In this document: positions 36,236 to 64,000 of the stretch, piece after piece
Layout of the letters: each line of letters opens with the position of its first letter
Position numbering within the stretch: the first letter of the stretch is position 1
Made by a program: the position numbers and the translations under genes
Notes under the pieces: generated by a model
What the model was told of the DNA's origin: nothing
The model's input: only the letters and a program-made list of their open reading frames with translations
The model's database searches: none
Source of the DNA: Clostridiales bacterium
Lineage (GTDB): Bacteria > Bacillota > Clostridia > Christensenellales > Aristaeellaceae
DNA length: 64,000 nt
Direction of reading: 5' to 3'
Assembly: GCA_015056205.1 (NCBI GenBank)
Contig: SVGS01000018.1
Span: 1 to 64,000, forward strand

Positions 36236-36251
36236 GAAGGGAGAGGTTCGC

Positions 36252-37142: not shown

Positions 37143-37196
37143 CGTTTTCCCGCGGGGAGGCCCCGCACAATATATATTAAGGAGGAATCACCCATT

Positions 37197-39269: not shown

Positions 39270-39292
39270 GATTCCTTTTGGTACCCATTCTT

Positions 39293-39318
39293 CCGGGAGG
39301 GGAGCAATCCCCTCCCGG
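39293..39318 (+). terminator. Hairpin after the binding-protein gene
   Basis: CCGGGAGGGG, 6-base loop, CCCCTCCCGG. No T-run follows, so it probably gives partial termination or raises the level of the binding-protein mRNA, as is usual after such genes. Confidence 0.6.
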
Positions 39319-39340
39319 GGGATTCGCGAAAATGGCAAAC

Positions 39341-39445
39341 GTGAACCGACGTTCACAGGGAGACAGATGTTGTCCGCGAACGCGCCAGCGAAGCGGTACC
39401 AAAATCGTCATCCGGACAGAATGACAGACGTGAACTGACATTCAC
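39341..39445. promoter_or_regulatory. Two GTGAAC-type palindromes, possible operators
   Basis: GTGAACCGACGTTCAC (39341-39356) and GTGAACTGACATTCAC (39430-39445) share a GTGAA-N6-TTCAC frame, and each is followed by CAGRG. Both lie between the binding-protein gene and the next membrane gene. A dimeric regulator could bind here. Confidence 0.5.
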
Positions 39446-39463
39446 AGAGGAGTGAGGTCTATC

Positions 39464-40042: not shown

Positions 40043-40542
40043 CACAGGCCATGGACGATCGCCAAATCAGGCTGGACCGGATGCGGTACATCAAAAACAC
40101 CTCTTCCTCCAGGCTGTGCTATCTGGCCATTCTGCTCAACGTTCTGTATTTCATTTCGATATATAAGTCCGACGTGGGAAACTGGTATTATCAGATCCTG
40201 GTCGGCGGGTCCATCGTTTACAATCTGCTGTTCCTGCTGATGGCTTTCCTGGCCTCAGAGGGCGTCAAAAGCTATCAGATTAACTATTCCTATCTGCTGT
40301 ACGCGCTGGGCGTCCTGCAGGTGGTCAGGATCTTTATCCTGCCCATGCAGGCCCATTCGGCGACAGTGGTGGTCAACGGCGTGGAAACGGTCGTCATGGG
40401 GAATGCCCAGTTCATCCGGTGCGTGATCTATCTGGCCGGAAGCGCGGCCTGCCTGATCATCGCCGGGATCATCAATCAGCAGAAGTCCATCGCCCTGAAT
40501 AAGCACCTGGCCAGCCTGGGAACCGGGAAGGAGGCTGCGTAA
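40039..40542 (+). CDS. Small membrane protein B of the transport locus, unknown
   Basis: A 167-residue protein with four membrane segments (LCYLAILLNVLYFISIY, ILVGGSIVYNLLFLLMAFL, YLLYALGVLQVVRIFIL, CVIYLAGSAACLIIAGI). It is translationally coupled to the previous gene, and the ATPase gene starts one base after its stop. The four-helix layout with charged cytoplasmic N-terminus resembles protein A and may be related in fold. No named domain is seen. Confidence 0.6.
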   Translation: MTQAMDDRQIRLDRMRYIKNTSSSRLCYLAILLNVLYFISIYKSDVGNWYYQILVGGSIVYNLLFLLMAFLASEGVKSYQINYSYLLYALGVLQVVRIFILPMQAHSATVVVNGVETVVMGNAQFIRCVIYLAGSAACLIIAGIINQQKSIALNKHLASLGTGKEAA

Positions 40543-40543
40543 G

Positions 40544-41614: not shown

Positions 41615-41617
41615 GCC

Positions 41618-42157
41618 ATGAAGGAATTCTTCCGGAAGAAAATGGTCGGCCTCAAGCGGAAGCCGCAGACCATCGCTCTGGTTGTGCTGGTGGTCGCCTT
41701 CCTCTATTATTCGCTGAACCTGACGCAGATCTCCAATACCACGGCGAAGGTACAGGGGCCGGGCATGGGTCTGTCGGGCTTTGTGACCATGCTTTTCAGC
41801 ATGCTGAGCCTGGTTTGCTTCATGAACGCCTTTCCGCACCGGAAAAAGGTGAACATTCCGATGCTGGTTCTGATGTTCATCATGATCGGGGTGATCATCT
41901 ACTGTGATATCTACTACGGCGGAAGAATTACCAGCGCCATTACCCGGGCGGACAATCCGATCGATCCCACGGGCACAAACAGTTATATCACGAACGCGCA
42001 GAACATGCTTAAGGTCCACATGATCATTCTGATCATCGGAGCCGGGCTGACCGCGCTGCTGCCGGTTTACGCCCCGCTGCTGAAGAAGGTCAATACCTCC
42101 ATCGAGGTTGCCGGAAACGATGATATGGGCGCTCTGGATCTGAGAGGCGAAGACTGA
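41618..42157 (+). CDS. Small membrane protein C of the transport locus, unknown
   Basis: A 179-residue protein with four predicted membrane segments (TIALVVLVVAFLYYSLNL, MGLSGFVTMLFSMLSLVCFM, IPMLVLMFIMIGVIIYCDIYY, MIILIIGAGLTALLPVYAPL). The N-terminus is strongly basic (FFRKKMVGLKRK) and the C-terminus acidic. It starts three bases after the ATPase gene. I recognise no family. It could be a structural partner of the ATPase or a separate small transporter. Confidence 0.6.
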   Translation: MKEFFRKKMVGLKRKPQTIALVVLVVAFLYYSLNLTQISNTTAKVQGPGMGLSGFVTMLFSMLSLVCFMNAFPHRKKVNIPMLVLMFIMIGVIIYCDIYYGGRITSAITRADNPIDPTGTNSYITNAQNMLKVHMIILIIGAGLTALLPVYAPLLKKVNTSIEVAGNDDMGALDLRGED

Positions 42158-42161
42158 TTCC

Positions 42162-42818
42162 ATGGCCGGAAGGAAACGGAGCCCCGGGAGAAAGCAGACT
42201 CCCGAAAAGCCGGCGGAGCAGACGCTTTCGGATTATTATAAGCTGAACACGAAAGCGGTGGAGGATCTGGTCACCGCGGACGAAACCAACTCTCCGAAGG
42301 TGAGCCAGGCGGAACTGAATCGCTATCGCTCCGGTCCGAAGATCAGGGTCGCATCGTGGGTGAAGGTGATCCTGCTCAAGTGGTGGTTTGCGGGCGCCTG
42401 CTGCTTCTTCTTTTACTGGGGGCTGGGAGTGGCCGTTCCAAGCCATGAGAATCTGCTGCTGATTCTCGGCGCGGGTCTGGGCTTTGTGATGGACCTGCTG
42501 GAGAACAATATCCTGAGGTATTACGCGAAAACGCCGGGAGGAAACAACCGCTGGATGATGGTGACCCGGAAAGGGTTTGCCTCCCTGCCGTTAAACATTC
42601 TGTACGGATATCTGCTGCTGTTCCTGGTGATCCTGAGCTATAACGGGATTAACGCGGGATACATCGCGCTGACCGGGCCGACGGATACGATTCCCGTGGG
42701 CGTGGAGCCGATCCTTTTCGGACTGCTGGTAACGGCCTGGGATCTGCTGCTGCTGAAGATGAAGCGCGTGATGAGGTCCATGGTGGCGGACGCGAAGAAA
42801 CAGAATGGGAGAGGATAA
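42162..42818 (+). CDS. Small membrane protein D of the transport locus, unknown
   Basis: A 218-residue protein. The first ~75 residues are soluble and basic (AGRKRSPGRKQTPEKP), followed by YRSGPKIRVASWVKVILLKWW, three to four more membrane segments (FFYWGLGVAVP, LGAGLGFVMDLLENNILRY, FASLPLNILYGYLLLFLVIL and GVEPILFGLLVTAWDLLLLK) and a basic tail. No named domain is known to me. It lies four bases after protein C and five before GH105. Confidence 0.6.
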   Translation: MAGRKRSPGRKQTPEKPAEQTLSDYYKLNTKAVEDLVTADETNSPKVSQAELNRYRSGPKIRVASWVKVILLKWWFAGACCFFFYWGLGVAVPSHENLLLILGAGLGFVMDLLENNILRYYAKTPGGNNRWMMVTRKGFASLPLNILYGYLLLFLVILSYNGINAGYIALTGPTDTIPVGVEPILFGLLVTAWDLLLLKMKRVMRSMVADAKKQNGRG

Positions 42819-42823
42819 AAACC

Positions 42824-43948
42824 ATGTACGAAATGCTCGACCGCTACATCGACAGTCTGGTTGCCCGTTCTTCTCCCGGCCGGACGGTCTGGAATCAGGA
42901 AATTATCCGGGACGGGAAGGAAGGCAGCTGGAATTATATTGACGGCTGCATGCTGACCGCCCTGATGACCCTGGGAGAGCTGACCGGAAAGGATGAGTAT
43001 CTCGGCTTCGCGGAACGGGTGGTGGATCATTACGTTCGGGAGGACGGAACCATTGCCACTCTGGAAACGGACAAGCACCGGCTGGATGATGTGAACGAAG
43101 GCCGGGCGCTGTTCCCGGCATACCGGCGGACCGGAAAGGAAAAATACCGGAAGGCCGCGGAGCTTCTGATGGATATGCTGGCGAAGCAGCCCAGAACGCC
43201 GGAGGGCAGCTACTGGCACAAGTCCATTTATGTGGAACAGGTCTGGCTGGACGGCATTTATATGGCGCAGCCCTTTAAGGCGCTGTATGAGAAGGAATTC
43301 GGAATCCGTGATTACAGCGATATCATCGATCAGATCCGCATCGTGAAAAAGCATATGCGGGATGAGAAAACCGGGCTGTATTATCACGGATACGATTATA
43401 CGAAGAGCATGTACTGGGCCGATCCTGTGACCGGCTGCAGCCAGTGCTTCTGGCTGAGGGCGATCGGATGGTTCTCCATCGCGCTGGCGGATCTGGCCGA
43501 GATTATCGATGACGAGCCGGTGCGGAAGGAAATCGGGGAAATCCTGCTGGATCTGATGACTTCCATGGCCCGCTACGCGGATCCGGAAACCGGAATGTAT
43601 TACCAGGTGGTGGATCAGGGCGGCCGGGAAGGCAATTACCTGGAATCCAGCGGCAGCTCCATGGTGGCCTACGCCATGATGAAGGGCGCCCGGCTGGGCG
43701 TGCTGCCGGAAAGCTTCCGGGAGCTGGGACGGAAAACCTTTGACGGGCTGGTTCGCACCCGCCTCACCTTTGACGGGGAGCATATGGGGCTGAGCGGGAT
43801 CTGCCTGGTGGCCGGGCTCGGGGATTCCAACGGAAAGCCCCGGAACGGAACCTACGAGTACTATATCTCGGAACCGGTGGTTCAGGATGACGCCAAGGGC
43901 ATCGCCCCGCTGGTGCTGAGCTACAGCGAGGTCAAACGGTTCGCCTGA
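42824..43948 (+). CDS. GH105 unsaturated rhamnogalacturonyl hydrolase
   Basis: A 374-residue alpha/alpha-barrel enzyme like Bacillus YteR/YesR. It hydrates the double bond of unsaturated uronates at the end of lyase-made oligosaccharides, releasing 5-keto-4-deoxyuronate for KduI. The catalytic Asp motif is VWLDGIYMAQPF (about residue 143). WNYIDGCMLTALM, YYHGYDYTKSMYWADP and FWLRAIGWFSIALADL match the family. No signal peptide, so it is cytoplasmic. AGGATAAAAACC precedes ATG 42824. Confidence 0.92.
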   Translation: MYEMLDRYIDSLVARSSPGRTVWNQEIIRDGKEGSWNYIDGCMLTALMTLGELTGKDEYLGFAERVVDHYVREDGTIATLETDKHRLDDVNEGRALFPAYRRTGKEKYRKAAELLMDMLAKQPRTPEGSYWHKSIYVEQVWLDGIYMAQPFKALYEKEFGIRDYSDIIDQIRIVKKHMRDEKTGLYYHGYDYTKSMYWADPVTGCSQCFWLRAIGWFSIALADLAEIIDDEPVRKEIGEILLDLMTSMARYADPETGMYYQVVDQGGREGNYLESSGSSMVAYAMMKGARLGVLPESFRELGRKTFDGLVRTRLTFDGEHMGLSGICLVAGLGDSNGKPRNGTYEYYISEPVVQDDAKGIAPLVLSYSEVKRFA

Positions 43949-44042
43949 TCGGAAAAACGGAGAAACCCATCCATCCGGAAGGCCGGATGAAACACGATAT
44001 CAACGGGACGCTGTCAGAGGCAGCCAAGGAGGCAAGAAGCGG

Positions 44043-45122
44043 ATGTATATTACGCTGAAGGACATCAACAAGATTTACCCCAATGGATTCCATGCGGTGC
44101 ATAACTTCAACCTGGAGATCGAAAAGGGTGAGTTCATTGTGTTCGTCGGCCCTTCCGGCTGCGGAAAATCCACGACGCTCCGCATGATTGCGGGTCTGGA
44201 AAACATCTCCAGCGGAGAATTCCTGATTAACGGAAAGCGGGCGAATGAAATGGGCCCCCGGGAACGGGAGGTCGCCATGGTTTTCCAGAGCTACGCCCTC
44301 TATCCCCAGATGACCGTGTATGACAACATCGCGTTCGGTCTGACGCTGCAGGGCGTGGATGAGGACGTGATTGAGCAACGCGTTCTGAAGACGGCTAAAA
44401 TCCTGGGCCTGACGGATTATCTGGACCGGCTGCCGAAGGCACTGTCCGGCGGCCAGCGTCAGCGTGTGGCCATCGGCCGGGCGATTATCCGGAAGGTGGG
44501 CATCTTCCTCATGGACGAGCCTCTGTCCAACCTGGATGCCAAGCAGCGGGTGACCATGCGGTATGAAATCGCCCAGATTCACCAGGAAACCGGCGCCACC
44601 ACGATCTATGTTACCCATGACCAGACGGAAGCCATGACGCTGGCGGACCGCATCGTGGTAATGAAGGATGGCTATGTACAGCAGATCGGAACGCCCTACG
44701 AACTGTATTTCAAGCCGGCGAATGTCTTCGTCGGAGGCTTTATCGGCGAGCCGCCCATGAACTTTGCCAGGGGCAGGGTGGAGAACGGCGTGTTCCGCTT
44801 CGGCAGCGTGGACCTGAATCTGAAGGCCTGCCGGAAGGATGCCGCGGCGCTGGAAGGAAAGGAAATCGTGCTGGGCTTCCGTCCGGAAGCGATCGTCCTG
44901 AACCCGCAGGAAAACGCTTTCCGGGTGGACTGCGATGTGGAACTGACGGAGATGCTGGGCGACAATACCAACGTCTATATCACCAGCGGTGAGCAGCAGG
45001 CGATTCTGAAGGTGGACAGCCATGACACGCCCGAAATGGACGCTCCGCTGACCTTCTACATTCCCTATGAGTCCGTCTATCTTTTCGACGGAGAGACGGA
45101 ACTGGTGATCAGTCAGGACTGA
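44043..45122 (+). CDS. MsmX/UgpC-type ABC transporter ATPase, copy 2
   Basis: A 359-residue ATPase with Walker A GPSGCGKST, signature LSGGQRQRVAIGR, Walker B IFLMDEP and HDQTEAM, and a TOBE domain from about residue 240 (VLGFRPEAIVL). It is close to copy 1 in the first 230 residues but different in the regulatory part. The 94-base gap before it has an AAGGAGG ribosome site. Two such ATPases in one locus imply separate regulation or preference for different permeases. Confidence 0.92.
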   Translation: MYITLKDINKIYPNGFHAVHNFNLEIEKGEFIVFVGPSGCGKSTTLRMIAGLENISSGEFLINGKRANEMGPREREVAMVFQSYALYPQMTVYDNIAFGLTLQGVDEDVIEQRVLKTAKILGLTDYLDRLPKALSGGQRQRVAIGRAIIRKVGIFLMDEPLSNLDAKQRVTMRYEIAQIHQETGATTIYVTHDQTEAMTLADRIVVMKDGYVQQIGTPYELYFKPANVFVGGFIGEPPMNFARGRVENGVFRFGSVDLNLKACRKDAAALEGKEIVLGFRPEAIVLNPQENAFRVDCDVELTEMLGDNTNVYITSGEQQAILKVDSHDTPEMDAPLTFYIPYESVYLFDGETELVISQD

Positions 45123-45994: not shown

Positions 45995-46135
45995 ATGCCG
46001 GAAGAGGAACGTAAAACTGCCGCGGATACCCCGTCGGGGAGAGATCCCAAGGATCATCCCTGGCTGGAGATGCCGATGGATGAATCGTCCCTCGATGAAG
46101 CCCTGCGTTACACGCTGGATGAAATCCGCTTCTGA
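45995..46135 (+). CDS. Short hypothetical protein
   Basis: A 46-residue acidic peptide (MPEEERKTAADTPSGRDPKD...) starting at ATG 45995, seven bases after AAGAAGG. An in-frame ATG at 45989 sits too near the ribosome site. It ends LDEALRYTLDEIRF. There are no cysteines, leader motif or family. It could be a real small protein or a fragment, since the next region is decayed. Confidence 0.4.
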   Translation: MPEEERKTAADTPSGRDPKDHPWLEMPMDESSLDEALRYTLDEIRF

Positions 46136-50498: not shown

Positions 50499-50837
50499 CC
50501 AAGCGAAAAAATCATGTAACCACACGGAAGGACATGAAGAAATCAATACGCATTTTTGACGATTATATTTCATAAATTCATATCCGGTTCACAACAGACT
50601 GAAGTATTGTTTTGCAGGCTGATTTCTCAACGGATCGGCCTGCAAAATGTCTTTTTTGGACAGCAAATCATCCGCTTTTTCATTGTGCCTTCAGGAAAAA
50701 TGTGGTAACATCAAAGTTGGAACTTTTCACCACGAACGGTTACGTCTGAGCAATGCTAAAAATGCAAAGCGTGACGGACACTTCGCGGCACATCCATGCT
50801 GCGCGGAACGATTTCTCCCAGGGACGAAGAGGTGCTG
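50499..50837. other. Leader region before the surface-protein genes
   Basis: This 340-base gap holds a terminator (50610-50657) and then a ~180-base leader before the acidic protein gene with GC-rich palindromic parts (CGCGGCACATCCATGCTGCG near 50790). It may be a structured 5' untranslated region, but I could not match it to a known riboswitch. Confidence 0.5.
50610..50657 (+). terminator. Terminator before the surface-protein cluster
   Basis: TTTTGCAGGC, 18-base loop, GCCTGCAAAA, then TGTCTTTTTT. Confidence 0.8.
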
Positions 50838-52631
50838 ATGATGATGAATCGCTTCAAAAGATTTCTTTCACTGATCTGCGCGCTGTCTATGCTGATCAGC
50901 ATAGCCGGAAGCTACGCGGATCCGAATGAAGGGGACCGGCCCGATCTGCCGGCTGCCACAGAACCGGCATCGGAGCCGGAGCCTGCGCCGGCCGAAGAGC
51001 CCCCGCAGGAGTCTGAAGCGGATGAAGCGAATGAAACGAATGATCCGGAAGGGGACGATCCGTCTGATACGGATCCTTCCGATGAGGATCCTTCTGATGA
51101 GGAGCCTTCCGGTCAGGAAGAACCGTCCGGTTCAGAAGAATCTTCAGAAGATGACTCTCAACCCGGCGGAGAACCGGCTTCGGATCAGCAGAAAGAGCAT
51201 TCAGACGAAGAGAAGCCTTCTGAAGAAGAAAAGCCGTCCGCAGACGAACGGAAGGACCCGAAGCCAGATGATTCGAAGAACGACGAATCACAGCCGGACG
51301 GAGCGAAGCAGGAGGATGAAAACCAGACTCCGGCTTCTGAAGGGGAGGAAAAGCAGGCATCCGGTTCAGGGAACGGGGAAAACCGGGAATCATCTGACCA
51401 GACCGGAACCGATCATCCGTCCGACGCAGATTCTGCCGCTACACAGACGGCCGGGCAGGAAACTTCCGGTTCATCCGACGGCTCCGGAACGGCGGAACAG
51501 GGCAACCCGGCTGAAAACGAAGCGGAGAACAAGGACGCTCAGGCATCCGAACAGAACGTTTCTGATCAGAATGCATCCAGTCAGAACGGTTCCGATCAGA
51601 ACCCATCCAGTCAGAATACACTCGGACAGGAAAGTGCTGTGCAGGAAATGCCTTCCGATTCCGATGAAAACCTGAACGAAGCGGAGGAGCCGAAAGACGA
51701 TCCGGAAGAAAAAGAAAACGAAGAGGATCAGACCGGACTGAATGTGCTCGAAATCGGCGGCAGCGTGAAAAAGGGCACCGTCGTTCCGGATGAACCGGTC
51801 CGGCTGGTCATGAGATCCGAAAGAACCGAGACCATTCTGCTGACCGTGATCCTGGCAGCAGAGGATGAAATCCGGCTGGCAGTTAACAGCAGGGAACTGA
51901 GCTTCGCCGAAAGCACCGTGGACGAGGAGAACGGAGAACAGACGCTGATTTATCCGCTGGAGGCGAAAGACGGGAACGCGTATCTGCTGGAGATCACGGC
52001 GGATAAAGAGACCGGGTTCTCCATTCAGGCGGCCTACCGGGAAGCGGAAGTCCCGAAGGAAGAAGAATTGCCGGAAGGGGAAGAAAACAAAGAACAGACC
52101 GAAGTCCAAAACGACAATAATCCGGATGATTATGTTGAAAAACCTGCAGAATCAGAGAATTCAAAAGATACGAATAATCAAGAACCCCAAGAACCTGATA
52201 AAAAGGAAGAGTCATCAAACATTCCCGAACTGAGTATACCGGAAAACGCCAGTATAACATATGACGTATTCTGGGATGGAGAAGCAGCGATTGGGGAAGT
52301 GGCACATTTTGTAGCTGTTGTTACCGGAATGGAAGGGTATAATTATCAGCTTCAGTGGCAGGCAAGTGACGATAATGAGAAATGGTTTGATTTAGATAAT
52401 GAAACCGGAATGAAGATGGATGTCCTGATTACGAATGAAAACTGTGATTTATACTGGCGCGTACAGATGAAAGTAACCGGTATGATTCATTCTGAAAAAG
52501 AGATTGATTCAAACCTTAACGAGGAAAGTGATGACAATCATGATGCCGGTATGAGTAATGATGGAATCCTTGACGAGCACATTCCAAATGAAGAAAAGTC
52601 TGATGAAAAGACTGAAACAGAAGTAAATTAA
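50838..52631 (+). CDS. Secreted acidic low-complexity stalk-like protein
   Basis: About 597 residues. The start lies in three consecutive ATG codons (50838-50846) after AGAGGTG. MNRFKRFLSLICALSMLISI is a signal peptide. Residues about 30-310 are a disordered Glu/Ser/Asp/Gln/Asn/Pro-rich region with short repeats such as DPSDEDPSDEEPSG and SDQNASSQNGSDQNPSSQN. Then come a beta-rich domain (about 315-410) and, after another acidic linker, a final Ig-like domain (ITYDVFWDGEAAIGEVAHF, YQLQWQASDDNEKWFDL). There is no LPxTG or lipobox. It immediately precedes the giant adhesin and probably shares the cell surface with it. Confidence 0.75.
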   Translation: MMMNRFKRFLSLICALSMLISIAGSYADPNEGDRPDLPAATEPASEPEPAPAEEPPQESEADEANETNDPEGDDPSDTDPSDEDPSDEEPSGQEEPSGSEESSEDDSQPGGEPASDQQKEHSDEEKPSEEEKPSADERKDPKPDDSKNDESQPDGAKQEDENQTPASEGEEKQASGSGNGENRESSDQTGTDHPSDADSAATQTAGQETSGSSDGSGTAEQGNPAENEAENKDAQASEQNVSDQNASSQNGSDQNPSSQNTLGQESAVQEMPSDSDENLNEAEEPKDDPEEKENEEDQTGLNVLEIGGSVKKGTVVPDEPVRLVMRSERTETILLTVILAAEDEIRLAVNSRELSFAESTVDEENGEQTLIYPLEAKDGNAYLLEITADKETGFSIQAAYREAEVPKEEELPEGEENKEQTEVQNDNNPDDYVEKPAESENSKDTNNQEPQEPDKKEESSNIPELSIPENASITYDVFWDGEAAIGEVAHFVAVVTGMEGYNYQLQWQASDDNEKWFDLDNETGMKMDVLITNENCDLYWRVQMKVTGMIHSEKEIDSNLNEESDDNHDAGMSNDGILDEHIPNEEKSDEKTETEVN

Positions 52632-52704
52632 CTCCAGGCTCCAGTCAAGAAAAACGTAACAATATTAATGTGAAGATTGACGTTAAAAGACAAGGATGAT
52701 CAAA

Positions 52705-55700
52705 ATGAAACGTACCGGAAATCGAATTCTCGCTCTGGTTATGGCAGTTGTAATGGCTACGGGCATTCTCCCGTTTAATGCGTATGCGGATGAAATCAGG
52801 AATTCATCCGGGAGAAAGCTTACTTTGAATTCTCCGGTTGCCAAATCTGAAGGAGTATGGGATTTGGCCGATTCATCCAATACCCAGTATCTGCATGTGT
52901 CATCTGAAGCGACTACTTCAGAACAAGAGCGGGATGCGGCTTTTAAAGTTCGCTTTATTTATTCTTTGAATGAAGATATTGTCCGGGCGATTGATTCATA
53001 TGATGGAAATCCGGTTCTTGTATATGATCTGAACAGCGTTGTTGCAGATTCACCATTAGGCGGAATCCGCAATAATACCAATGGTTCGATCACAATCGGT
53101 TCGCGTAAATTAGGACGATATACAATCATTGACAATGTCGTTACAATGACATTTACGGATACGGATTATTTCAACGGAAAAACCAGCTTTGTTGGCTTTT
53201 TTGACGCAACACTTGAAACCAGCATTACCGAATTGGAAAACAACGATGAATATACATATACTTTTCCCGGGACGACGGACACAATTCCTGTAAAATATAA
53301 AAAGACGGTAGAAGATGGAACAAAGAGCGTATATTCTACCCAGGATGAGAACGGCGATACCATTCTTCACTATACGGCCAATATCAGTGTAAACAATGAC
53401 CTGGATTCACTCGAATTTAATGATGTAATATCCGGATTACAGACATTGGATTCGAACAGCGTAAAGGTAAACGGTAAAGGAGCTTCTGTTACAGTTTCCG
53501 GTAGTGGCTTCAGCTTTAAAGTAGAAGACGCTTTAGGTACAACGGGTGTTCCCAAAGGTTCTTATCAGGTTACGTATGATACGAGAGTTACGGCTGAGCA
53601 GCTTCAAAGTATGACTGCGAATAGCACAAAAGAAGATAATAAAGCCTCATGGAAAGTGAACGGAAAAAAAGACGTTCCCGGCGGAGAAACCAGAATAGAA
53701 TTCGATAAGCCCAAAGAACCTATACCCGTAAAGAAACAAATTAACAATGGAACGGATGCAAAAGAACCGGGAGATGAGATAGAGTATTCTGTTTCCTATG
53801 GAAGTGACACAACGGTTCTGGCAGGATTTACGATTGCGGATTATTTTACTGATGTACAGGTTTTGCAGGGAGATATTTCCATCAGTTATGGAGATACAAC
53901 AATTAAACTGCCTGAAAACGCAATTGACTCAGCTGCGACAGATAACCATTACAGTACAGGCATGACCACGCTTTTTGAATATCCCTTCCCGGATACTACA
54001 GTGGGCAATGGCCCTGTTACGGTTACTTACAGGACGAAATTAATTGATCAGGAAACAGCAAAGAAGAATGGTATTTTTGATACAATCCAGGTAAGCAATA
54101 CTGCGGAAGAAAAACGGCAGAATACAAAGGATACTGTAACGACTGCTGTAAAGTATGAGAAAGAACCGGTTTATTCTGTTCAGAAAACAGCAGCTGCGAA
54201 CAACGACGGAGAAACGTGGTCTCCTGAAGAGGAAATCACATATACTTTAACAATTGGCGACAGTAATACAGAAATGGCCGGTGTCGAAATCCGGGATGTG
54301 ATGACTGACCTTCAGATCCTGTCAGGCGATGTTATGATCCAAATTGGATCCGGGACCGCCACGAAGCTTAGTGATTATGTTCCGGGTGCCCTCACTTATA
54401 CAGACGATAAAAACTATAGTTCGAATGATGTGGAGCTTTTCCATTTCAACATGCCAAACGACGCCGGTGTTGGTCCGGTAATCATTACATACACGGCTAA
54501 GATTATTTCGCAGACTGAGGCTGAAGAGGCGGGTATTTACGGAAACGTTCAAATTCGGAATACAGGTTATGGCGGGCAACAATCAGCAGGAACACAGGGT
54601 CAGGGAGAATTCGCCGGATATCCGATTAATAAAAACGTTGCAAATCTGAATAATGAAGACATCAATCATCAAACGATAGAGATGGGGGACACGATTCACT
54701 ACGTTTTAACATTTGGCAAATCAGGCATGGATATGTCAAATGTGACGATTTATGATGAATTCACAGATATACAAAAATTAACCGGGTCTGTCACGATTAA
54801 GAAGAATGATGGCAGTTCGTTTACCATGCCTGCAGGAAGCGGTCAGTGGAATGATGACGGTGTGGTATGGATGTATCTTGATGACGATCGCTATTCAAAT
54901 GAAAATGTTCGGGTGTTTAATTACAGACTGCCGAATGACATTGGCGTGGGACCGATCACTGTGGAATATGATGCACAGATCATATCGGCAGACGAAGCGA
55001 AGGAATCCGGCATCAGCGACACACAAAATGCCTATAATACTTTCAGAATTAACAATTATCAGGCACAGACGGATGTGAAAATAGAATTTCCCAAAGAGCA
55101 AAAGCATAATCCTCAGGTGAAAAAGGAGTTTGATCATTGGGATGTTCCTAACAGCAAAGTGTACTGGAATATCATCGTAGAGAAAGATGCCGAATCTTCT
55201 TATCCTTTGGAAAATGTCACCGTACAGGAAGCTTGGATGTACGGTAAAGTATCAATCAACGAGGGAAATCAGGGCTATTATGGGTATAATCAATTCAATG
55301 GGAGCAATTTTGATGTTCTGAATGCTGTTGTTATGACAGACGACGGGACCGTATTAACACCTGGTAAAGATTATCTTGTGGACAAATCTTCCAGTAAGTT
55401 TTCTTTCCCGATTCTTCGGGAACGAGTGCATATTAATCTCGCATTTCTCAGCCCTGCCAAAATAATTGACGGCTATTACATGAGAAACGAAGTTATATTA
55501 AATGAAAAAGACAGTGGAATTGCCGAACAAACATATCATAAGCCGGATATTGAAGCGGTTAAGAATGGACAATATGATGAAACCAGGAAAATTATCACCT
55601 GGGAAGTCCAGATAAACCCGACCGCGAAGCAATTTACCATCAGTGACGAAAACAAGTATACTGTTCTGTTCAAGGACAATATTCCAAATGGATTAACATT

Positions 55701-58700
55701 ATTGAATTATGCAAATGAGAGCGAAACAAATCCAACAGTATTTGTTAAATTCGGATGGCGTGAATATGAGGTTTCAGTTCAGCCCACAGCCCTGGGGGAC
55801 GGAGGATCGGCCATTGAATGCAATGTTCATCCAAAGGGCAGAATGGAATATAACTGGGATGAGTCCTTAAGCGGAAATAAGGTGGTTGTCACCTACAAAA
55901 CAAAGATTTCTGATGAGGAATGGAATCGAATAACCAGTTCATTAAGCGGAGAAAAGGAATTCACAAACCATGCAACGATTACGGCAGGCGATGATGAAAG
56001 CTTCGAGGCCACTGATACGGTAACTGTGACGTCGGAAGGCTTTATCACAAAGACTGATTCCACTAAGGAGAATGGTGGAGTGGTTATTGACGAAAACGGA
56101 TCGAACAGCAAAATAATCACTTACCGTATTGATATCAATCCCAATTCATATGTATTAAACAACGGAAACACGTTAACATTGACGGATTATCTTGATACCA
56201 ATATGGATATTGATACTGAATCAGTTACCCTGAAAGATGAGACAGGAAGTGATATTTCAAATACCATCATTTCATACAACGATGATTCAAGACTGTTCAC
56301 GATCCGGCGTATTCCCGATCAGAAGCACCTGATTTTAACTTATTCCTGTATCGCGAGAGCACAGGGAACAGATACTTTTAAGAATACCGCTACTCTTATT
56401 GGCGGAGGCAGTCATAGTGCCAATACCAGTGAAGAACACAGGATTTATACGGATGAAGCAGGTGTTGCTGTTGATGGCCTGATGATCAATCTGCATAAGA
56501 TTGATGAAAACGGATTAAAGGCTCTTGAAGGAGCAGAGTTCCAGCTCTATGAATGCGAGCTGGCTATTGGAGACCTTACCAACAAGGAAAAATACCCGGC
56601 CGATTGGTGGAATAATTTCCTGAATCATTATGAACAGGAACATTACGATGTTGAAAACAAATTCAAAATCACAAAATACAAACCTCTGGACAGTGTAAAA
56701 CGATCGGGTTCAAATGGATATATCGATTGGAGCAGCCTGTCAGAAAATAAATTATATGCATGGAAAGAAATCAAGGCTCCAGATGGATATATCGGCAATT
56801 CCGAGTATCACTATTTTGTTCTCTATCAGCATATTGATGTGAACACAGAAGACCCAACGCAGAACAAACCTCTTCCGGAGACGGAACAAATGAACCGTAA
56901 AAACGCAGCCTGGGCACTGGATGATGCCTGTCAGATTGCAAACGGAATTCGTGTAGCTTCGCTGGCCAATTTCTCTACCTGGACAGCCACGAACATTGAG
57001 AATCAGTATACATACATTAACGCCACGAAAATGTGGGAAGGCGATAGTGACAACCTCTATGAGACACGGCCCAAAGATGGAATCGTATTGCAGTTATGGG
57101 CAATCCATTCCGATGGTTTCAGAGAAAGGGAAGGCTCTCCGGTCGCTATTAATGTGGATCAGAATGGAAACTGGCCGAGTTATATCTGGAACAGACTTCC
57201 TGCCTTTGATCAAGAAGGCAATCCGATAAAATATACTGTAATCGAAAACCCTGTAGAAAACTATTCGACTACCTATTCAGACCGTGGGAAAGGACAAACA
57301 TCGGGAACAATTACAGTTACCAACAAGATGATTCCCAAGAGTACAGATCTTTATGTGAGAAAAGAATTTGTTCCTGCAAACGCAGATAAACCATCACAAA
57401 TTATCGTTAATTTGATGGTCATCAAAACAGATAAACAGGGCAATTCTTTACCGGCTGAAGAAGCAGGGATACAGGGGATGCTTTCGTCTTCCAATAACTG
57501 GACATATCATTTTGAAAAACTTCCGACAAAAGAAGTTGTAAATGGCATCCCCTATACATTGTCGTATACTGTCGTGGAAGACCCTGCATCTGCAAATCAT
57601 TACGATCTGGTTGAGTATTCTGACGGCGGCAGGGGAGTAATTGAAGCGACGGAAGAGGATCCCTTAATTATTACGAACAAGATCATTACCTCAGGCGATT
57701 TGGTCTTGAAGAAAAAACTGAAGAATGGCAGCAGCGATAATGTATTTGAATTTGAAATTTCTTTTTCCGGAGAAAAGGCGAATGAATTAGCAAATGAATA
57801 CAGTATCGTGATTACAGATGATGCCGGCGGGGAACCTGAGTTCAAACCAGTATCCGTAGAAAACAAAACTGCCGTAATAGGCATTAAAGCCGGTCAAACC
57901 ATTACAATCAAAGATTTGCCATTAGGGCTACAATACCGGGTATCAGAAAAGACCATCTCCGGATATAAAGTGGTTTCTTCATCCGGAATCACAGGACAGA
58001 TTCAAAAGGGCATTGTTTCCGAAGTTGAATATACGAATGAGAAAGTATCTGACATCCAGGTGACAAAAGCCTTTGATGGGATCAGTAACCTTCCCGCCGG
58101 TTTTAAGATTACCAATAATTATAATAACTCTGTTTTCACGGTTGAAAACGCAGAAGAAACCAATCCCTATATCTGGGTCATTCGTGATATACCGGTTGGA
58201 ACAGAGATCACATTTACTGAAAGCGGCATGACGGCGGAAGGCTATGACTTAACTGTCAATGGGACTGCCATTACAGAAGAAAACGCAACAATTGAAGTGA
58301 AAGCGACCGCCGAGACAGGAAAAGTCAATTCTGCAAGTTTTATCAATGCTTATAAACAATTGCCCGGAACGCTGAAAGTTACCAAGAATGTAAAAGTAAA
58401 TGAAGCGGATCCTACAGCACAGAATAAAAAGGCTGCGGATGGAATTTATAAGTTTAATGTGTACGCAACAAATGCGGACGGGGAGAAGACTGGAAATGTC
58501 CTTGAAGTGATTTCAGTTGAAATCAAGGACGGCGTATCCAAGACTGTGGAATCTGTCAAGAAGTATACGGCGGGCCGGTATGTTGTGGAAGAAGATGCTT
58601 CCGCTATGCCCGATCATGTAAGATTGCTTCAGCCTTCAAATAATACAACTGTGACCGTTTCTGCCGGGAAGACGGGGGATGCTGTTGAAGCATCCGGTAT

Positions 58701-61700
58701 TGCGAGCTTCACAAACAATATCGACGTGGGAAGCCTGGAGATCGAAAAGGCAGTTACGGTAAACGGAGCACCGACAGAGGAAACACTGGCAGACGGTACG
58801 TATACCTTTGCAATTACCGGCCCGGAGGGATACTCTGATTCCGTTAATCTGACAATCTCTCAAGGAAAGAGTACCAGCAAAACTCTGATCAATCTGATTC
58901 CCGGAGAATATACGATTACGGAAATGGATCCCGGGAACGGAACTCAGGTAGTTAGAGAAGGCAGTCGGAAGATTACCGTATCCGGCGGAAAGACCGCAAC
59001 GGAACCAGTCAAGGTATCGTTTACCAATAATGTTGACGTCGGCAGTCTGAAGATCAAGAAGAACGTTCAGGTGAATGGAACGAAAACGACAACAACAGAA
59101 GCGGACGGGACCTATACATTTACGGTCACAAACGCGGAGGGGAAGACAACCACACACACGATTACGATCAAAAACGGAAAAAGCAATGAAATCACAATCG
59201 GCAATCTCAAGCCCGGCACCTATACGGTAGCTGAGGATACGAGCAAAAATCCTGAGGGGATGGCTGTGGTCGGAGCCGCCAGCCAGGAGGTGACAGTTTC
59301 CGCCGGAACAGGCAGTCAGATTAGAACGGCTGAATTTACAAACAACAAGACCAGCGTCGGTGCGCTGAAGATCACCAAGAACGTGACAGTGAACGGCGCG
59401 GCTGTAACCAATGCCACAAAGAATCTGGCAGATGCTGTTTATCAGTTTACTGTTCAGGGGACGGGCGACAATGCTGATTATCAAAGCACTGTCGAGATCA
59501 GAATAACAAACGGCAAATCGAACACCGCCACCGTTTCCAATCTGATTCCCGGAAACTATACAATTACCGAAATCACGCCAACCAACGGAACAAGCCTGAC
59601 AGGGAACCAAAACCCGGTGACAGTGACGGTTGCTGCAGGCACCACCGAAGACACTACAGAAGCTATTGCTTCGTTTACGAATAATATTGATGTTGGCGGA
59701 TTAAAAATCCGGAAAGCACTGACCGAAAACGGAAAAGAAACGCTTTCTGATCATACAAAATCCAAGCTGGCCGGAACATATTCCTTTGCAATCTATACAG
59801 ATGCCGGATGTTCTCAGACTCTGAAGAACGCAGCGGGGCAGGATTACAGGATTCAGCTGACCGTTGGAGATGACGGAGAAGCGGTAACCAGCGATGAGAT
59901 CATCAATCTGCCGGCGGGTGATTATTGGATTAAGGAAACGGATCCCCAAAATGGATCTGTTGCAACAGAGAATCCGGTTAAGGTAACCGTTGTCGCCGGA
60001 AAAACCGGAGATCAGGCTGCAATTGCCACAATCACGAATAATTATCTGGTTGGCGATCTTGAGATAACAAAAAAGGTTACCGGAAATGCCGGTAACAAAG
60101 ATCAATACTTCTCCTTTAAAGTTACGCTGGACGATATCAACATTCAGGGCACTTATGAAGATCTGACATTCGTTGACGGCGTAGCTGAATTCAAACTAAA
60201 AGACGACGAAACCAAGATAGCGAGAGGATTGCCGGCCGGAACGAAGTACAAGGTTACGGAGACGGCGAACAACAATTATACCACCACCTCTACCGGGACT
60301 GACGGAACGATTCCGGCGGGCCAAAAAGCTCAGGCTGTGGTGACCAATAAACGCGAAGCGTTCGGGAATCTGACCATCTCGAAGAAAGTAAGGGGAAATG
60401 CAGTCAACCAGAATACGTTTGAATTCACCGTAACCCTGAAGAATGCAGACGGACAACCGGTTACAGGTACGATCGGAACGCATACGTTCAACGAAAACGG
60501 ACAGACAACCGTCAGCATTAAAGCCAATGAATCCTTAACCATTCAGCATATTCCCAACGGAACAAGCTACACAGTCACGGAGAAGGATGAAGGCTTTATC
60601 GTAACGGGAAAAGCCGGAAATGAAACGGAAGAACGAACACTTGCCGACAGGACACTGAACGGAAAGTTTGATATAAACAGTTCCGTTTCATACGAGAAGC
60701 AGGGAGACCAGACGGTCAGCTTTACCAACGAACGAAACACCTATGGCGGTCTGAAAGTTTCCAAAGTCGTTATAGGTACAGGATCTGTACAGAGCTTTAA
60801 GTTCACCGTAACATTGAAGGATGCTTCCATCAACGGAACCTATGGTCAGATGACATTCAAAGACGGAGTCGCAACCTTTAACCTGGGTGAAAACGAAAGC
60901 AAATATGCTCTTGGCCTGCCGAATGGATTGGCCTATACGGTTACTGAACAATCCTATGCTCCCAACGGATATACGACGGCGATGAACGGCTGTGAGAATG
61001 CGTCTGTCGAAGGGGTCGTGACAGAAGTCGCCCAGATGACGGAAGACAGGATTCATGCAAACAATATCGTTGTCGTAACCAATACCGTCCATGCCGGAGA
61101 CGATCTCGTGATTTCCAAGACAGTAACGGGAAATTCAGGAGATAAAAACAAGCCGTTCAGCTTCAAGGTGACGCTGCTTCAGGCTGCTCTCACGAGCAAC
61201 TTCAACGGAACGCTCGACGGGGCTGAACACACATTCACCTTTACAAGCGGTATATGTGAAAACATCCAGCTCAAGGACGGTCAGACAGCGGTTATTAAGG
61301 GCTTGCCGGCCGGAACGGAATATACTGTTACAGAAACGAAAGAAGAGGGCTATATTATTAAGGATGCGGACGGACAGGTGATTGAGTCCGCGTCAATGAA
61401 CGGGAAGACCAATAAAAAAGGCGAAGGGGCATCCGTAACAGCTTTTGTCAATGAGAAAAACCTTTACGGCGGACTCAGGATCACCAAGGCTACCGGCGGT
61501 AATGACGGAGATAAAAAGAGCTGGTTTGCTTTCCAAGTTGTACTTGATGATAAAACCATAAATGGATCCTATGGCGATGTTGTTTTCGTGAACGGTGTGT
61601 CCGATCACAACACAGAGAGCAGCAAGGAGAAGCTTGCGGCGGCCGGGGTTGCCGAAAACCTGTATTTGAACAAGTATCCTGAAGCCAACAGGCCGGTAAA

Positions 61701-64000
61701 TGACAAGGGGCAGACAAGCGGTGAGTCTTCCGATACGAGCGGATGGGTGATTGCGTCCACGAATTGCCCGATTGTTATCACCGGGCTGCCGGCGGGCATC
61801 CGATACGAAGTGACGGAAGATACCTATGCATCGCAGCGGTATCAGCAGAGCGGAATCCGAATGACGGGAACAATCAATGGCCTCAGCAACACGCCGGAAG
61901 GCGTGACGGAAACAGCGATTCCGCCAGCCAACACCGCTGAAGCGACCAACATTCGGAACTCCTATAACAATCTGACGCTGCATAAGCTGATCAGCGAAGA
62001 CAGTTCCTTTGTCGATAATGACAGGGAATTCGAATTCGCGATCGAACTGAAGGATGAAAAAGGTGCTCCTGTAACCGGGACTTACGGGGATGTTGAGTTC
62101 AACGCAGGGAAGGCAACCGTTAAACTGAAGAACGGAGATTCGATCATTGCCAGTCAGATACCGGTCAAGTATGAGTACTCCGTTCACGAGAATCTCCCGA
62201 CCGGATATGCGGTAACGTATACCCATACGGATAAAAACGGCAGTCTGGAAGGTGTCACCAAAAATGGTGTGATCGGGAAGATTTCCAATAACGGGCATGT
62301 GGTGGAGGCGACGAATACCTACTCCTCCGAAGGAACGGGTTCCATCAGCGTAACAAAGCTGATTAACCGGCAGGATGGTCAAAACTATGTATGGAACGAC
62401 CGGGATCAGTATACCTTCACCCTCACCGGCCTGGATCATGCACCGATGCCGTCTAAGACAAGTATTACCATAACGAAGGATGATCCGAAGCATACGAAAT
62501 CCTTTGGCGAGATTACATTTACCAAGGCCGGTATCTACCAGTACAGGGTGAAGGAAACCAAAGGAACTGTTGGCGGCATAACATATGATGAAGCTGAACA
62601 CCCGGTTACAATCGAGGTGACGGACAATAAGGAAGGGGAACTGATTGCGTCCGGCGTAAGCAACCTGAACCAGACCGTTACAGTTAAAAATACTTATAGT
62701 GTCTCCGTGAAAGGAGAGATCAAAGTTCAGAAGCGGCTGGATGGCAGGGAATGGGTAAACAGTGATCAGTTTACGTTTGAAATCCAGGGGTCGGCGGGTG
62801 CGCCAATGCCTGCTCAACGGACCATTACTATCAGAAAAGCAGATGTCAATCATACTGTCAGCTTCGGAGAAATCGCATTTAACAAGGCTGGGACCTATAC
62901 CTATCTGATCAAGGAAACCCAGGGTAATATTCCCGGAATTGAATACGATTCCGTAAGCCATGTAGTGACGATTAAGGTGATCGAAGATTCTGCGAATCAT
63001 GGCAGCCTGATTGCCGACACCGGAAGCAGTCTGATCCAGACTGTACAGTCGATCAATACCTATCGCGCCACCGGAGAGGGCGAGGTTCAGGTACAGAAAG
63101 TACTGATTGGACGGGACTGGATGGATTCGGACGAATTCACATTCACGCTGAACGCGGTCGGGGAGGCTCCGCTGCCCGTGAATACAAGTATTACCCTGAA
63201 CAGCAGCACTAAGGATCACATTCAGCCTTTTGAAAAAATTCCGTTTACCAAGGCCGGAACCTATACCTATACTGTGACGGAGAGTAAAGGATCAGCTAAT
63301 CGCATCGGATATGATCCGACTGTTCAGCAGGTTGTATTTACGGTTGTGGATGATGGTATGGGCCATCTGTCAGCGTCTGCCAACAGTAAGCTGGTACAGA
63401 AGGTTCAGTTCACCAATCAGTACACCCCGGATGTTCCGGAATTCAACAAGAAGATTCTCGATATCAACGATACAACCGATGCGGCCATCGATTATAATGA
63501 TCCGGAGAAGTACACCGGATGGCAGGACTCCGCGGATTACGATATCGGAGATGACGTACCGTATCGACTGCAGGCTGTGCTGCCGGATGATGTGACAAGC
63601 TATTATACATACCATCTTACCTTCCATGACAAATTGGAGGACACATTAAGCTTCAAGGACGATATTCGGATTATTGTCATGGATCAGAATCATCAGGTTC
63701 TGTCTGAACCCGGGTTTACAAAGAGTAGGGATCATAAAACCGATGCAGATACGTTCGCTGTCACGCTGAGCTGGGGGAATGAAACAGAACGGATCACAGA
63801 CACCCGACTGAATAATGCAATCATTGAAGTCTATTTCAGCGCGAAGCTTCTGGAAAACGCGAATCTGGGCAAGCGGGGAAATGTCAACGAGGCGTATCTT
63901 GAATTCAGCAATCAGCCCAGTCTGAAGGACGGAGGCCAGATTGGAACGAATCAAACCGGGAAGACGGAGTATGATTCTGTTATTGCCTTTACCTACAAAG
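52705..64000 (+). CDS. Giant isopeptide-type surface adhesin, 3' end off window
   Basis: A single frame stays open from ATG 52705 to the window edge (3,765 codons). Signal peptide MKRTGNRILALVMAVVMATG ends at AYA. Order of modules: N-terminal domain; three ~150-residue repeats (start about 337, 486, 636) with 'I.D..TD.Q.L.G'; a large adhesin-like part; SpaA/Cna-B domains (about 1257-1650; GAEFQLYECEL, KEIKAPDGYIG); four to five ~105-residue repeats (about 1885-2440; 'GSLKIKKNV..NG'); six domains with 'GLPAGTKYKVTET' (about 2448-3200); three pilin FctA/Spy0128-type domains (about 3210-3570; FTKAGTYTYTVTES); and a fimbrial isopeptide domain. Lys, Asn and Glu residues for self-formed isopeptide bonds recur. 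The C-terminus, where a sortase motif would be, is not seen. It is more AT-rich than most of the window. ATG 52696 is an alternative start. Confidence 0.9.
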   Translation, partial: MKRTGNRILALVMAVVMATGILPFNAYADEIRNSSGRKLTLNSPVAKSEGVWDLADSSNTQYLHVSSEATTSEQERDAAFKVRFIYSLNEDIVRAIDSYDGNPVLVYDLNSVVADSPLGGIRNNTNGSITIGSRKLGRYTIIDNVVTMTFTDTDYFNGKTSFVGFFDATLETSITELENNDEYTYTFPGTTDTIPVKYKKTVEDGTKSVYSTQDENGDTILHYTANISVNNDLDSLEFNDVISGLQTLDSNSVKVNGKGASVTVSGSGFSFKVEDALGTTGVPKGSYQVTYDTRVTAEQLQSMTANSTKEDNKASWKVNGKKDVPGGETRIEFDKPKEPIPVKKQINNGTDAKEPGDEIEYSVSYGSDTTVLAGFTIADYFTDVQVLQGDISISYGDTTIKLPENAIDSAATDNHYSTGMTTLFEYPFPDTTVGNGPVTVTYRTKLIDQETAKKNGIFDTIQVSNTAEEKRQNTKDTVTTAVKYEKEPVYSVQKTAAANNDGETWSPEEEITYTLTIGDSNTEMAGVEIRDVMTDLQILSGDVMIQIGSGTATKLSDYVPGALTYTDDKNYSSNDVELFHFNMPNDAGVGPVIITYTAKIISQTEAEEAGIYGNVQIRNTGYGGQQSAGTQGQGEFAGYPINKNVANLNNEDINHQTIEMGDTIHYVLTFGKSGMDMSNVTIYDEFTDIQKLTGSVTIKKNDGSSFTMPAGSGQWNDDGVVWMYLDDDRYSNENVRVFNYRLPNDIGVGPITVEYDAQIISADEAKESGISDTQNAYNTFRINNYQAQTDVKIEFPKEQKHNPQVKKEFDHWDVPNSKVYWNIIVEKDAESSYPLENVTVQEAWMYGKVSINEGNQGYYGYNQFNGSNFDVLNAVVMTDDGTVLTPGKDYLVDKSSSKFSFPILRERVHINLAFLSPAKIIDGYYMRNEVILNEKDSGIAEQTYHKPDIEAVKNGQYDETRKIITWEVQINPTAKQFTISDENKYTVLFKDNIPNGLTLLNYANESETNPTVFVKFGWREYEVSVQPTALGDGGSAIECNVHPKGRMEYNWDESLSGNKVVVTYKTKISDEEWNRITSSLSGEKEFTNHATITAGDDESFEATDTVTVTSEGFITKTDSTKENGGVVIDENGSNSKIITYRIDINPNSYVLNNGNTLTLTDYLDTNMDIDTESVTLKDETGSDISNTIISYNDDSRLFTIRRIPDQKHLILTYSCIARAQGTDTFKNTATLIGGGSHSANTSEEHRIYTDEAGVAVDGLMINLHKIDENGLKALEGAEFQLYECELAIGDLTNKEKYPADWWNNFLNHYEQEHYDVENKFKITKYKPLDSVKRSGSNGYIDWSSLSENKLYAWKEIKAPDGYIGNSEYHYFVLYQHIDVNTEDPTQNKPLPETEQMNRKNAAWALDDACQIANGIRVASLANFSTWTATNIENQYTYINATKMWEGDSDNLYETRPKDGIVLQLWAIHSDGFREREGSPVAINVDQNGNWPSYIWNRLPAFDQEGNPIKYTVIENPVENYSTTYSDRGKGQTSGTITVTNKMIPKSTDLYVRKEFVPANADKPSQIIVNLMVIKTDKQGNSLPAEEAGIQGMLSSSNNWTYHFEKLPTKEVVNGIPYTLSYTVVEDPASANHYDLVEYSDGGRGVIEATEEDPLIITNKIITSGDLVLKKKLKNGSSDNVFEFEISFSGEKANELANEYSIVITDDAGGEPEFKPVSVENKTAVIGIKAGQTITIKDLPLGLQYRVSEKTISGYKVVSSSGITGQIQKGIVSEVEYTNEKVSDIQVTKAFDGISNLPAGFKITNNYNNSVFTVENAEETNPYIWVIRDIPVGTEITFTESGMTAEGYDLTVNGTAITEENATIEVKATAETGKVNSASFINAYKQLPGTLKVTKNVKVNEADPTAQNKKAADGIYKFNVYATNADGEKTGNVLEVISVEIKDGVSKTVESVKKYTAGRYVVEEDASAMPDHVRLLQPSNNTTVTVSAGKTGDAVEASGIASFTNNIDVGSLEIEKAVTVNGAPTEETLADGTYTFAITGPEGYSDSVNLTISQGKSTSKTLINLIPGEYTITEMDPGNGTQVVREGSRKITVSGGKTATEPVKVSFTNNVDVGSLKIKKNVQVNGTKTTTTEADGTYTFTVTNAEGKTTTHTITIKNGKSNEITIGNLKPGTYTVAEDTSKNPEGMAVVGAASQEVTVSAGTGSQIRTAEFTNNKTSVGALKITKNVTVNGAAVTNATKNLADAVYQFTVQGTGDNADYQSTVEIRITNGKSNTATVSNLIPGNYTITEITPTNGTSLTGNQNPVTVTVAAGTTEDTTEAIASFTNNIDVGGLKIRKALTENGKETLSDHTKSKLAGTYSFAIYTDAGCSQTLKNAAGQDYRIQLTVGDDGEAVTSDEIINLPAGDYWIKETDPQNGSVATENPVKVTVVAGKTGDQAAIATITNNYLVGDLEITKKVTGNAGNKDQYFSFKVTLDDINIQGTYEDLTFVDGVAEFKLKDDETKIARGLPAGTKYKVTETANNNYTTTSTGTDGTIPAGQKAQAVVTNKREAFGNLTISKKVRGNAVNQNTFEFTVTLKNADGQPVTGTIGTHTFNENGQTTVSIKANESLTIQHIPNGTSYTVTEKDEGFIVTGKAGNETEERTLADRTLNGKFDINSSVSYEKQGDQTVSFTNERNTYGGLKVSKVVIGTGSVQSFKFTVTLKDASINGTYGQMTFKDGVATFNLGENESKYALGLPNGLAYTVTEQSYAPNGYTTAMNGCENASVEGVVTEVAQMTEDRIHANNIVVVTNTVHAGDDLVISKTVTGNSGDKNKPFSFKVTLLQAALTSNFNGTLDGAEHTFTFTSGICENIQLKDGQTAVIKGLPAGTEYTVTETKEEGYIIKDADGQVIESASMNGKTNKKGEGASVTAFVNEKNLYGGLRITKATGGNDGDKKSWFAFQVVLDDKTINGSYGDVVFVNGVSDHNTESSKEKLAAAGVAENLYLNKYPEANRPVNDKGQTSGESSDTSGWVIASTNCPIVITGLPAGIRYEVTEDTYASQRYQQSGIRMTGTINGLSNTPEGVTETAIPPANTAEATNIRNSYNNLTLHKLISEDSSFVDNDREFEFAIELKDEKGAPVTGTYGDVEFNAGKATVKLKNGDSIIASQIPVKYEYSVHENLPTGYAVTYTHTDKNGSLEGVTKNGVIGKISNNGHVVEATNTYSSEGTGSISVTKLINRQDGQNYVWNDRDQYTFTLTGLDHAPMPSKTSITITKDDPKHTKSFGEITFTKAGIYQYRVKETKGTVGGITYDEAEHPVTIEVTDNKEGELIASGVSNLNQTVTVKNTYSVSVKGEIKVQKRLDGREWVNSDQFTFEIQGSAGAPMPAQRTITIRKADVNHTVSFGEIAFNKAGTYTYLIKETQGNIPGIEYDSVSHVVTIKVIEDSANHGSLIADTGSSLIQTVQSINTYRATGEGEVQVQKVLIGRDWMDSDEFTFTLNAVGEAPLPVNTSITLNSSTKDHIQPFEKIPFTKAGTYTYTVTESKGSANRIGYDPTVQQVVFTVVDDGMGHLSASANSKLVQKVQFTNQYTPDVPEFNKKILDINDTTDAAIDYNDPEKYTGWQDSADYDIGDDVPYRLQAVLPDDVTSYYTYHLTFHDKLEDTLSFKDDIRIIVMDQNHQVLSEPGFTKSRDHKTDADTFAVTLSWGNETERITDTRLNNAIIEVYFSAKLLENANLGKRGNVNEAYLEFSNQPSLKDGGQIGTNQTGKTEYDSVIAFTYK

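Follow-up and report, generated by a model that had tools for sequence, protein, structure and literature searches.

A giant isopeptide-type surface protein of a gut clostridial bacterium ends in a hydrophilic C-terminal tag that is often paired with OppA-like genes

An uncultured gut bacterium encodes a giant surface protein of 4,361 aa built from stacked beta-domains; flush with the stop codon, its sequence ends in the hydrophilic tail ...FEDYDTPLGVEIMINHVGDCFD*. The C-terminal residues of this tail, approximately 24 in number, form a tag that recurs on unlike proteins of related genomes, where it is often paired with a gene for a secreted OppA-like protein. The tag and its pairing with that gene are well supported, and the tag-and-partner system is unmatched by any described system in the literature searched. 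The stretch of DNA analysed (the window) comprises bases 1–64000 of the 75,738-base contig 45 of a 2.94 Mb genome in 46 contigs (91% complete).

The giant gene and its product

The giant gene begins with an ATG at 52696 on the + strand, and its reading frame is stop-free up to the window edge. The frame closes beyond the window, with a TAA whose last base is contig position 65781. The preliminary description had placed a stop-free frame of more than 3,765 residues between 52705 and the window edge; the frame was confirmed, with the true ATG three codons earlier, and extension along the contig brings the product to its full length. An open frame of this size is beyond chance explanation. The features are as follows.

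50796..52631, + strand: upstream gene of 611 aa with a signal peptide, an acidic low-complexity middle and a C-terminal Ig-like domain ('LQWQ.S.D...W...YWRV')
52696..64000, + strand: giant isopeptide-type surface protein, 3,768 aa in the window; the gene continues to contig position 65781
52696..52791, + strand: Sec signal peptide MIKMKRTGNRILALVMAVVMATGILPFNAYADE, boundary placed by eye; sole hydrophobic stretch at residues 9–30, after K/R residues
52792..56475, + strand: N-terminal beta-rich repeat region; sub-threshold Pfam matches only (AgI_II_C2, E 0.0011; SEF14_adhesin, 0.0019; DUF7927; Collagen_bind)
56485..57327, + strand: SpaA domain, then Cna_B domain (best stretches, shifted three residues)
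57670..62300 (approximate), + strand: DUF7601/DUF5979 block of 7 and 8 stretches, respectively (best 2453–2553)
62310..63435 (approximate), + strand: three FctA/Spy0128-type domains (FctA, 3 stretches, best 3464–3577; TIGR03786, 3 stretches)
63436..63909, + strand: RrgB-type isopeptide domain D2 (TIGR04226, best stretch 3581–3738)
about contig 65704–65778, + strand: C-terminal tag of the giant, outside the window

The Pfam stretches that pass alone in the giant are of the Cna_B (6), SpaA (4), FctA (3), DUF7601 (7) and DUF5979 (8) families, the DUF5979 stretches covering the same part of the protein as those of DUF7601. NCBIfam models add two RrgB-type isopeptide D2 domains and three streptococcal pilin isopeptide linkage domains. 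Sequence matches in the PDB include the B repeats of the Cna collagen adhesin (1d2p, E 2.9e-70) and several pilins, and the DUF7601/DUF5979 block matches the T-antigen pilin and ancillary protein 1. In the slices tried, residues 1 to ~1,260 had no Pfam model above cut-off. Cna_B, SpaA, FctA and related domains are those of the isopeptide-type Gram-positive adhesins and pilins, and the giant itself is, judged by its sequence, a further member of this known class.

The earlier account of about 20 stacked beta-domains arranged in blocks by type is a fair description of these Pfam and NCBIfam stretches; the Cna_B, SpaA and FctA/Spy0128 classes that it had named for domain searches were all matched, and its picture of a secreted giant with several isopeptide-type families is supported by the signal peptide, the Pfam and NCBIfam models and the PDB sequence matches. 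It had also called proteins of this length with so many isopeptide families in one chain rare, which does not apply within the genus, where the tail is found repeatedly on frames of between 3,500 and 11,632 aa.

The GC content of the gene is 40–44% over residues 1–1800, 45–51% up to residue 3900 and 60% over residues 3901–4361, against 58.7% in the surroundings (window bases 8001–50000). The gene is a mosaic, with AT-richer domains preceding a host-like, GC-rich 3′-end to which the tail and the final Cna_B repeats belong. The composition described earlier as AT-rich against GC-rich neighbours thus holds for most of the gene (40–51%) but not for its last 461 residues, and the acquisition suggested on that ground is, with such a mosaic, no more than possible.

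The 611-aa gene ends 64 bases ahead of the giant gene and has one hydrophobic stretch (residues 23–41); no Pfam or NCBIfam match was found for its protein. A secreted Ig-like 'LQWQ...YWRV' gene precedes 7 of the 10 tag-bearing giants whose start was seen, the window's included, the exceptions being L181, L182 and L183. Elsewhere in the window, bases 29607–45122 resemble, by eye, a cluster for uronate/pectin use with sugar ABC transporter genes. No match came from a search of plasmids in which a neighbouring gene served as query.

Absence of a standard anchor

As in LPxTG substrates, the giant has an N-terminal signal peptide. Sequence and Pfam searches of the giant found no LPxTG motif, no Gram-positive anchor match and no basic C-terminal end, and the signal peptide holds the protein's only hydrophobic stretch. 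Nor did Pfam match a C-terminal SH3b or other wall-binding domain, or a dockerin or cohesin domain, in the giant. An LPxTG or other known sorting signal with a sortase had been implied in the preliminary description; the signal is absent from the giant's end, and both sortases of the genome lie on contigs other than that of the giant.

Standard anchors are present in the same lineage. A 4,197-aa protein of the genus (L165:3077–15670) ends in an LPSTG-like sorting signal and a membrane helix, so that both endings coexist, and a VPKTG-type anchored protein in the window genome (L016:5769–8660, contig 41) is encoded immediately ahead of one of that genome's two sortase genes.

The C-terminal tag

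The last residues of the giant are TPGNTFYIFEDYDTPLGVEIMINHVGDCFD. The pattern N.VGDCF[DE]-stop matched 82 stretches in a database of genome contigs, of which 80 were read (all but L140 and L141). In these 80 loci, 76 of 83 pattern matches have INHVGDCFD after a recognisable tag, and the other 7 look like chance. The pattern leaves positions −9, −7 and −1 wholly or partly open; each of the 76 INHVGDCFD tags has I, H and D there, respectively. Because the entropy table admitted only rows ending in INHVGDCFD, its last nine residues are invariant by construction; without that filter the count is the 76 of 83 given above. Two exceptions to INHVGDCFD are L140, which ends in E, and L081, which reads INHAGDCFD. 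Further upstream, among 65 rows less than 80% alike, the tag has L at −15 (65/65), T at −17 (62/65), G at −14 (61/65) and Y at −19 (60/65), and it is preceded by a linker rich in Pro, Gly and Lys. Chance conservation is rejected on the pattern counts. Synonymous codons vary within the tag, with all four Val codons and all four Gly codons in use, and a DNA-level signal is rejected on that ground.

The frames that carry the tag include Cna_B, SpaA, MBG, MucBP and sortase proteins. Looser forms of the tag end MBG, MucBP and other proteins, and these retain the G at −5 and still finish on an acidic residue. Not all tags have the Cys (variants read GETIE, GEIIE and GDTFE), and some partner-paired tags lack it, which makes Cys lipidation unlikely as a general mechanism. 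In 102 tag genes no membrane-like stretch was found near the end, save the signal peptide of a 92-aa protein, and no membrane helix or basic residues follow the motif as they do in CTERM tags, the tag stopping at the stop codon. The 92-aa protein (L069, frame ending at 7636) consists almost entirely of a signal peptide, an acidic linker and the tag itself. In the proteins scanned, the tag is covered by neither Pfam nor NCBIfam models, and no description of it was found in the literature searched, including by the string NHVGDCF.

A search of the window genome with the 46-aa end of the giant returned four further places; with profile and partner searches, the other tag proteins of this genome number six, on contigs 14, 34, 38, 42 (two) and 46. 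Among 61 relatives, a first search at a loose E of 0.5 found the tag in 32 of 37 genomes of the genus and in 0 of 24 from other families. A broader profile (A4) located 118 tag places, spread at 1–7 per genome over 38 of the 45 genomes of the genus. As is typical of CTERM-type systems, a short homologous C-terminus is thus carried by several unlike proteins per genome. Across the order (297 genomes), a profile search found the tag in 6 of 6 genomes of the genus, 3 of the 17 listed from the same family and 0 of 274 others, and looser forms of it occur in other genera and in one other family. The phylum-wide search (398 genomes) returned the window genome itself and five partial matches (E 0.008–0.0097) that were taken as chance. 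The longest tag-bearing open frame, of 11,632 aa, lies on contig 4 of genome G007 (tag at 46025–46117); other tag-bearing frames of at least 6,000 aa were seen in G002, G007, G018 and G035.

The OppA-like partner gene

Of 102 distinct tag genes, 88 have at least 700 bases of downstream sequence, and in 53 of these the next gene, on the same strand, encodes a secreted OppA-like protein (SBP_bac_5). The partner lies next door to 47 of 79 tags with NHVGDC and 6 of 9 others. The SBP_bac_5 domain was present in all 3 partner proteins scanned, and the best PDB match of the partner is OppA (9p48, E 2.4e-18). In the window genome, an OppA-like gene follows the tag genes of contigs 14, 34 and 42 (one of two there), and the giant gene and the tag genes of contigs 46 and 38 have no such neighbour.

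The pairing was also approached from the partner, with one OppA-like protein as query against the 297 genomes of the order and 20 match regions fetched. All 13 strong partner genes from this search have a tag-like end directly upstream, and it reached eight tags that the tag searches had missed (L198, L199, L200, L201, L202, L205, L206 and L210), two of which belong to another family of the order. Seven weaker relatives in six loci have no tag upstream; six of them stand directly before an OppB-like permease, as identified by eye, and one before a second binding protein. The 237-bit OppA-like frame at L203 could be placed with neither group and is not among the rows of the tree described below. 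A phylum-wide search with the partner returned 12 other genomes (152–181 bits), in all of which an OppB-like permease follows (by eye) and in none of which a tag lies upstream.

The tags of L198 and L199, from another family of the order, have the form IPDEEVPLA...GECFE. This resembles a stretch often found before LPxTG in clostridial proteins, so an LPxTG region may have been the origin of the tag.

In a 75-row tree, 56 tag-linked and 19 permease-linked proteins are split by one branch (SH-aLRT 100). Of the 56 tag-linked genes, 55 have the end pattern upstream (the tag of the 56th, L174, being recognised by eye), vs 0 of the 19 permease-linked genes. Most of the 56 had themselves been retrieved by way of the tag, so a fair test of this association is confined to the 13 genes that the partner search brought up. 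A lipobox pattern is present in 4 of 56 tag-linked vs 15 of 19 permease-linked proteins, and the combination of lipid anchor and permease neighbour that marks a transporter component was not found for the tag-linked partners, as judged by lipobox and by downstream genes read by eye.

Tag convergence within genomes

Tags were compared over their variable part, positions −10 to −24, among 21 named genomes with at least 2 tag rows. This part differs by 0.26 within genomes (39 pairs) vs 0.51 between them (2,589 pairs), and the adjoining Cna_B part differs by 0.50 within (31 pairs) vs 0.57 between (400 sampled pairs). Where the Cna_B parts diverge by at least 0.4, the tag still differs by only 0.225 within (27 pairs) vs 0.508 between genomes (385 sampled pairs). 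None of 2,000 label shuffles reached the observed within-genome tag mean. The exceptions are three of the 31 Cna_B-aligned within-genome pairs, whose tags differ as much as, or almost as much as, those of separate genomes: L135/L136 (0.67, twice) and L068/L111 (0.47). Gene conversion or recent copying is not supported as the source of this likeness, because within-genome codon identity at same-residue positions is 0.514 in the tag, not above the 0.543 of the Cna_B part. Convergence at the protein level, unaccompanied by copying of codons, would be as expected for a shared recogniser acting in trans. Tag distance is correlated with partner distance (r 0.876; 0 of 2,000 permutations), a correlation that may come from linked inheritance alone.

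A proposed role for the tag

The reading we prefer, and hold with about even confidence, is that the giant is an adhesin-like rod and that its C-terminal ~24 residues act as a docking or sorting tag recognised in trans, likeliest by the OppA-like protein. Sec would export the giant, and the tag, having no membrane helix, would leave it outside the membrane. Recognition of the free C-terminus by a component provided in trans would keep or place the giant at the surface. The likeliest recogniser would be the secreted OppA-like protein (SBP family 5) encoded beside many other tag genes, which may be descended from, or sister to, the binding protein of an oligopeptide transporter, having lost its permease neighbour and, for the most part, its lipid anchor. 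The window gene would use a partner encoded elsewhere in the genome, on contig 14, 34 or 42. We infer the binding of the tag by the partner, the service of that binding to surface display and the use of a distant partner by the window gene. Weighed against docking are the 35 of 88 tag genes with no partner next door, and the lack of an OppA-like neighbour at the window gene and at the genes of contigs 46 and 38. In an AlphaFold2 prediction of the L128 tag read through into its OppA-like protein, the binding protein is folded (mean pLDDT 73, pTM 0.73) and the tag is disordered (pLDDT 26–30). This prediction lends docking no support and would be evidence against it, weak because the fusion loses the free C-terminus and only three rows cover the tag.

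A wider reading, put forward more tentatively, is that of a docking code at the cell surface, in which OppA-like proteins, parted from the transporter and for the most part from the lipid anchor, would read the free tags of giants and some sortases, with tags tuned by species and separate receptor paralogues for each tag type (here those of contigs 14, 42 and 34).

Sortase links and alternative readings

A recogniser other than the OppA-like protein is possible, as some tags lie beside or inside sortase genes. Among 92 sortase places in the genus, 13 have a tag at most 2.5 kb downstream on the same strand, where ~0.12 would be expected by a crude estimate. A sortase domain and a C-terminal tag share one frame in L168:3044–4450, L169:2029–3810, L174 (1,395 aa) and L206 (474 aa); one of these fusions scores as a class B sortase, below the cut-off of the model. 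L168 and L169 keep the LSTC...R motif of sortases. Such links favour a reading in which a class B sortase, another transpeptidase or some other enzyme cuts or joins the tag and attaches the protein covalently, with the OppA-like protein as an accessory. We nevertheless regard this as unlikely, given the lack of an LPxTG motif, membrane helix or basic end, the position of most tag genes away from sortases, and the 5 of 38 tag-bearing genomes that show no sortase (all five less than 90% complete). The sortase-like protein at L164:5019–5978, beside a small tag protein of about 313 aa, also seems to lack the catalytic Cys. Among the sortase places and gene neighbourhoods compared, no general protease or transpeptidase for the tag was found, sortase linkage being confined to a minority.

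At L085, L091, L113, L162 and L170, a tag gene, an OppA-like gene, a coiled-coil gene and a signal peptidase I gene stand in series, which looks like an export cluster and would suit a role of the tag and the OppA-like protein in helping very long secreted proteins to be exported, folded or quality-controlled, instead of in attachment to the surface. Several other tag loci are without the coiled-coil and signal peptidase I genes. This explanation is somewhat less probable than enzymatic attachment, as tag proteins can be as short as those of L069 and L164.

The membership of the partner in a peptide-binding family would allow the C-terminal peptide to be released and sensed as a signal, in the style of pheromones and Opp, but the absence of an adjacent permease where downstream DNA was read by eye, together with the scarcity of the lipobox pattern among the partners, renders this improbable. 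Least credible of all is an ordinary LPxTG adhesin whose true end was lost by truncation or misassembly in a draft genome of 46 contigs; it is refuted, as far as sequence can show, by a contig that runs on to a stop codon and by independent genomes that repeat the same end, always at a stop codon.

Comparison with known systems

How very long secreted proteins other than LPxTG substrates stay on Gram-positive cells is a largely open question, which is addressed here by a lineage of gut Clostridia in which one short hydrophilic C-terminus is carried by the largest surface proteins and linked to a partner family. The convergence of tags in each genome and the existence of the partner family mean that recognition in trans could be tested with no more than a short peptide and a single soluble protein, and the tag gives annotators a handle on surface proteins overlooked by present models.

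With LPxTG adhesins and pilins of the Cna, RrgB and FctA/Spy0128 types, the giant shares its signal peptide and beta-domain families, and it differs from them in having the new tag in place of an LPxTG motif, membrane helix and basic tail. The PEP-CTERM (PMC1569441), GlyGly-CTERM (PMC3237569) and MYXO-CTERM (PMC11980579) tags carry, behind the motif, a hydrophobic helix and basic residues, and their partner is a membrane protease; MYXO-CTERM has an invariant Cys (PMC11980579). They resemble the new tag as short homologous C-termini on many unlike proteins per genome with a dedicated partner family; the new tag differs in having no helix or basic residues, in its linkage to a peptide-binding protein and in a Cys that is not universal. 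Giant1–5 of Apilactobacillus kunkeei are secreted repeat proteins of 3,000–8,000 aa without membrane domains and bind the wall through SH3b-like ends (PMC12863079); the likeness lies in huge secreted repeat proteins, and the difference in the window giant's lack of an SH3 domain match.

The partner shares with the OppA/SBP family 5 proteins of transporters the SBP_bac_5 domain of Pfam and the PDB match to OppA, but it is paired with tag genes rather than permeases, mostly lacks a lipobox and forms its own clade. In the dockerin–cohesin system, a C-terminal module on many proteins docks to a shared receptor. Although the giant itself has no dockerin or cohesin match, the proposed tag and partner would work alike, and the docking code, if true, would amount to a cohesin–dockerin-like assembly system made from a transporter part.
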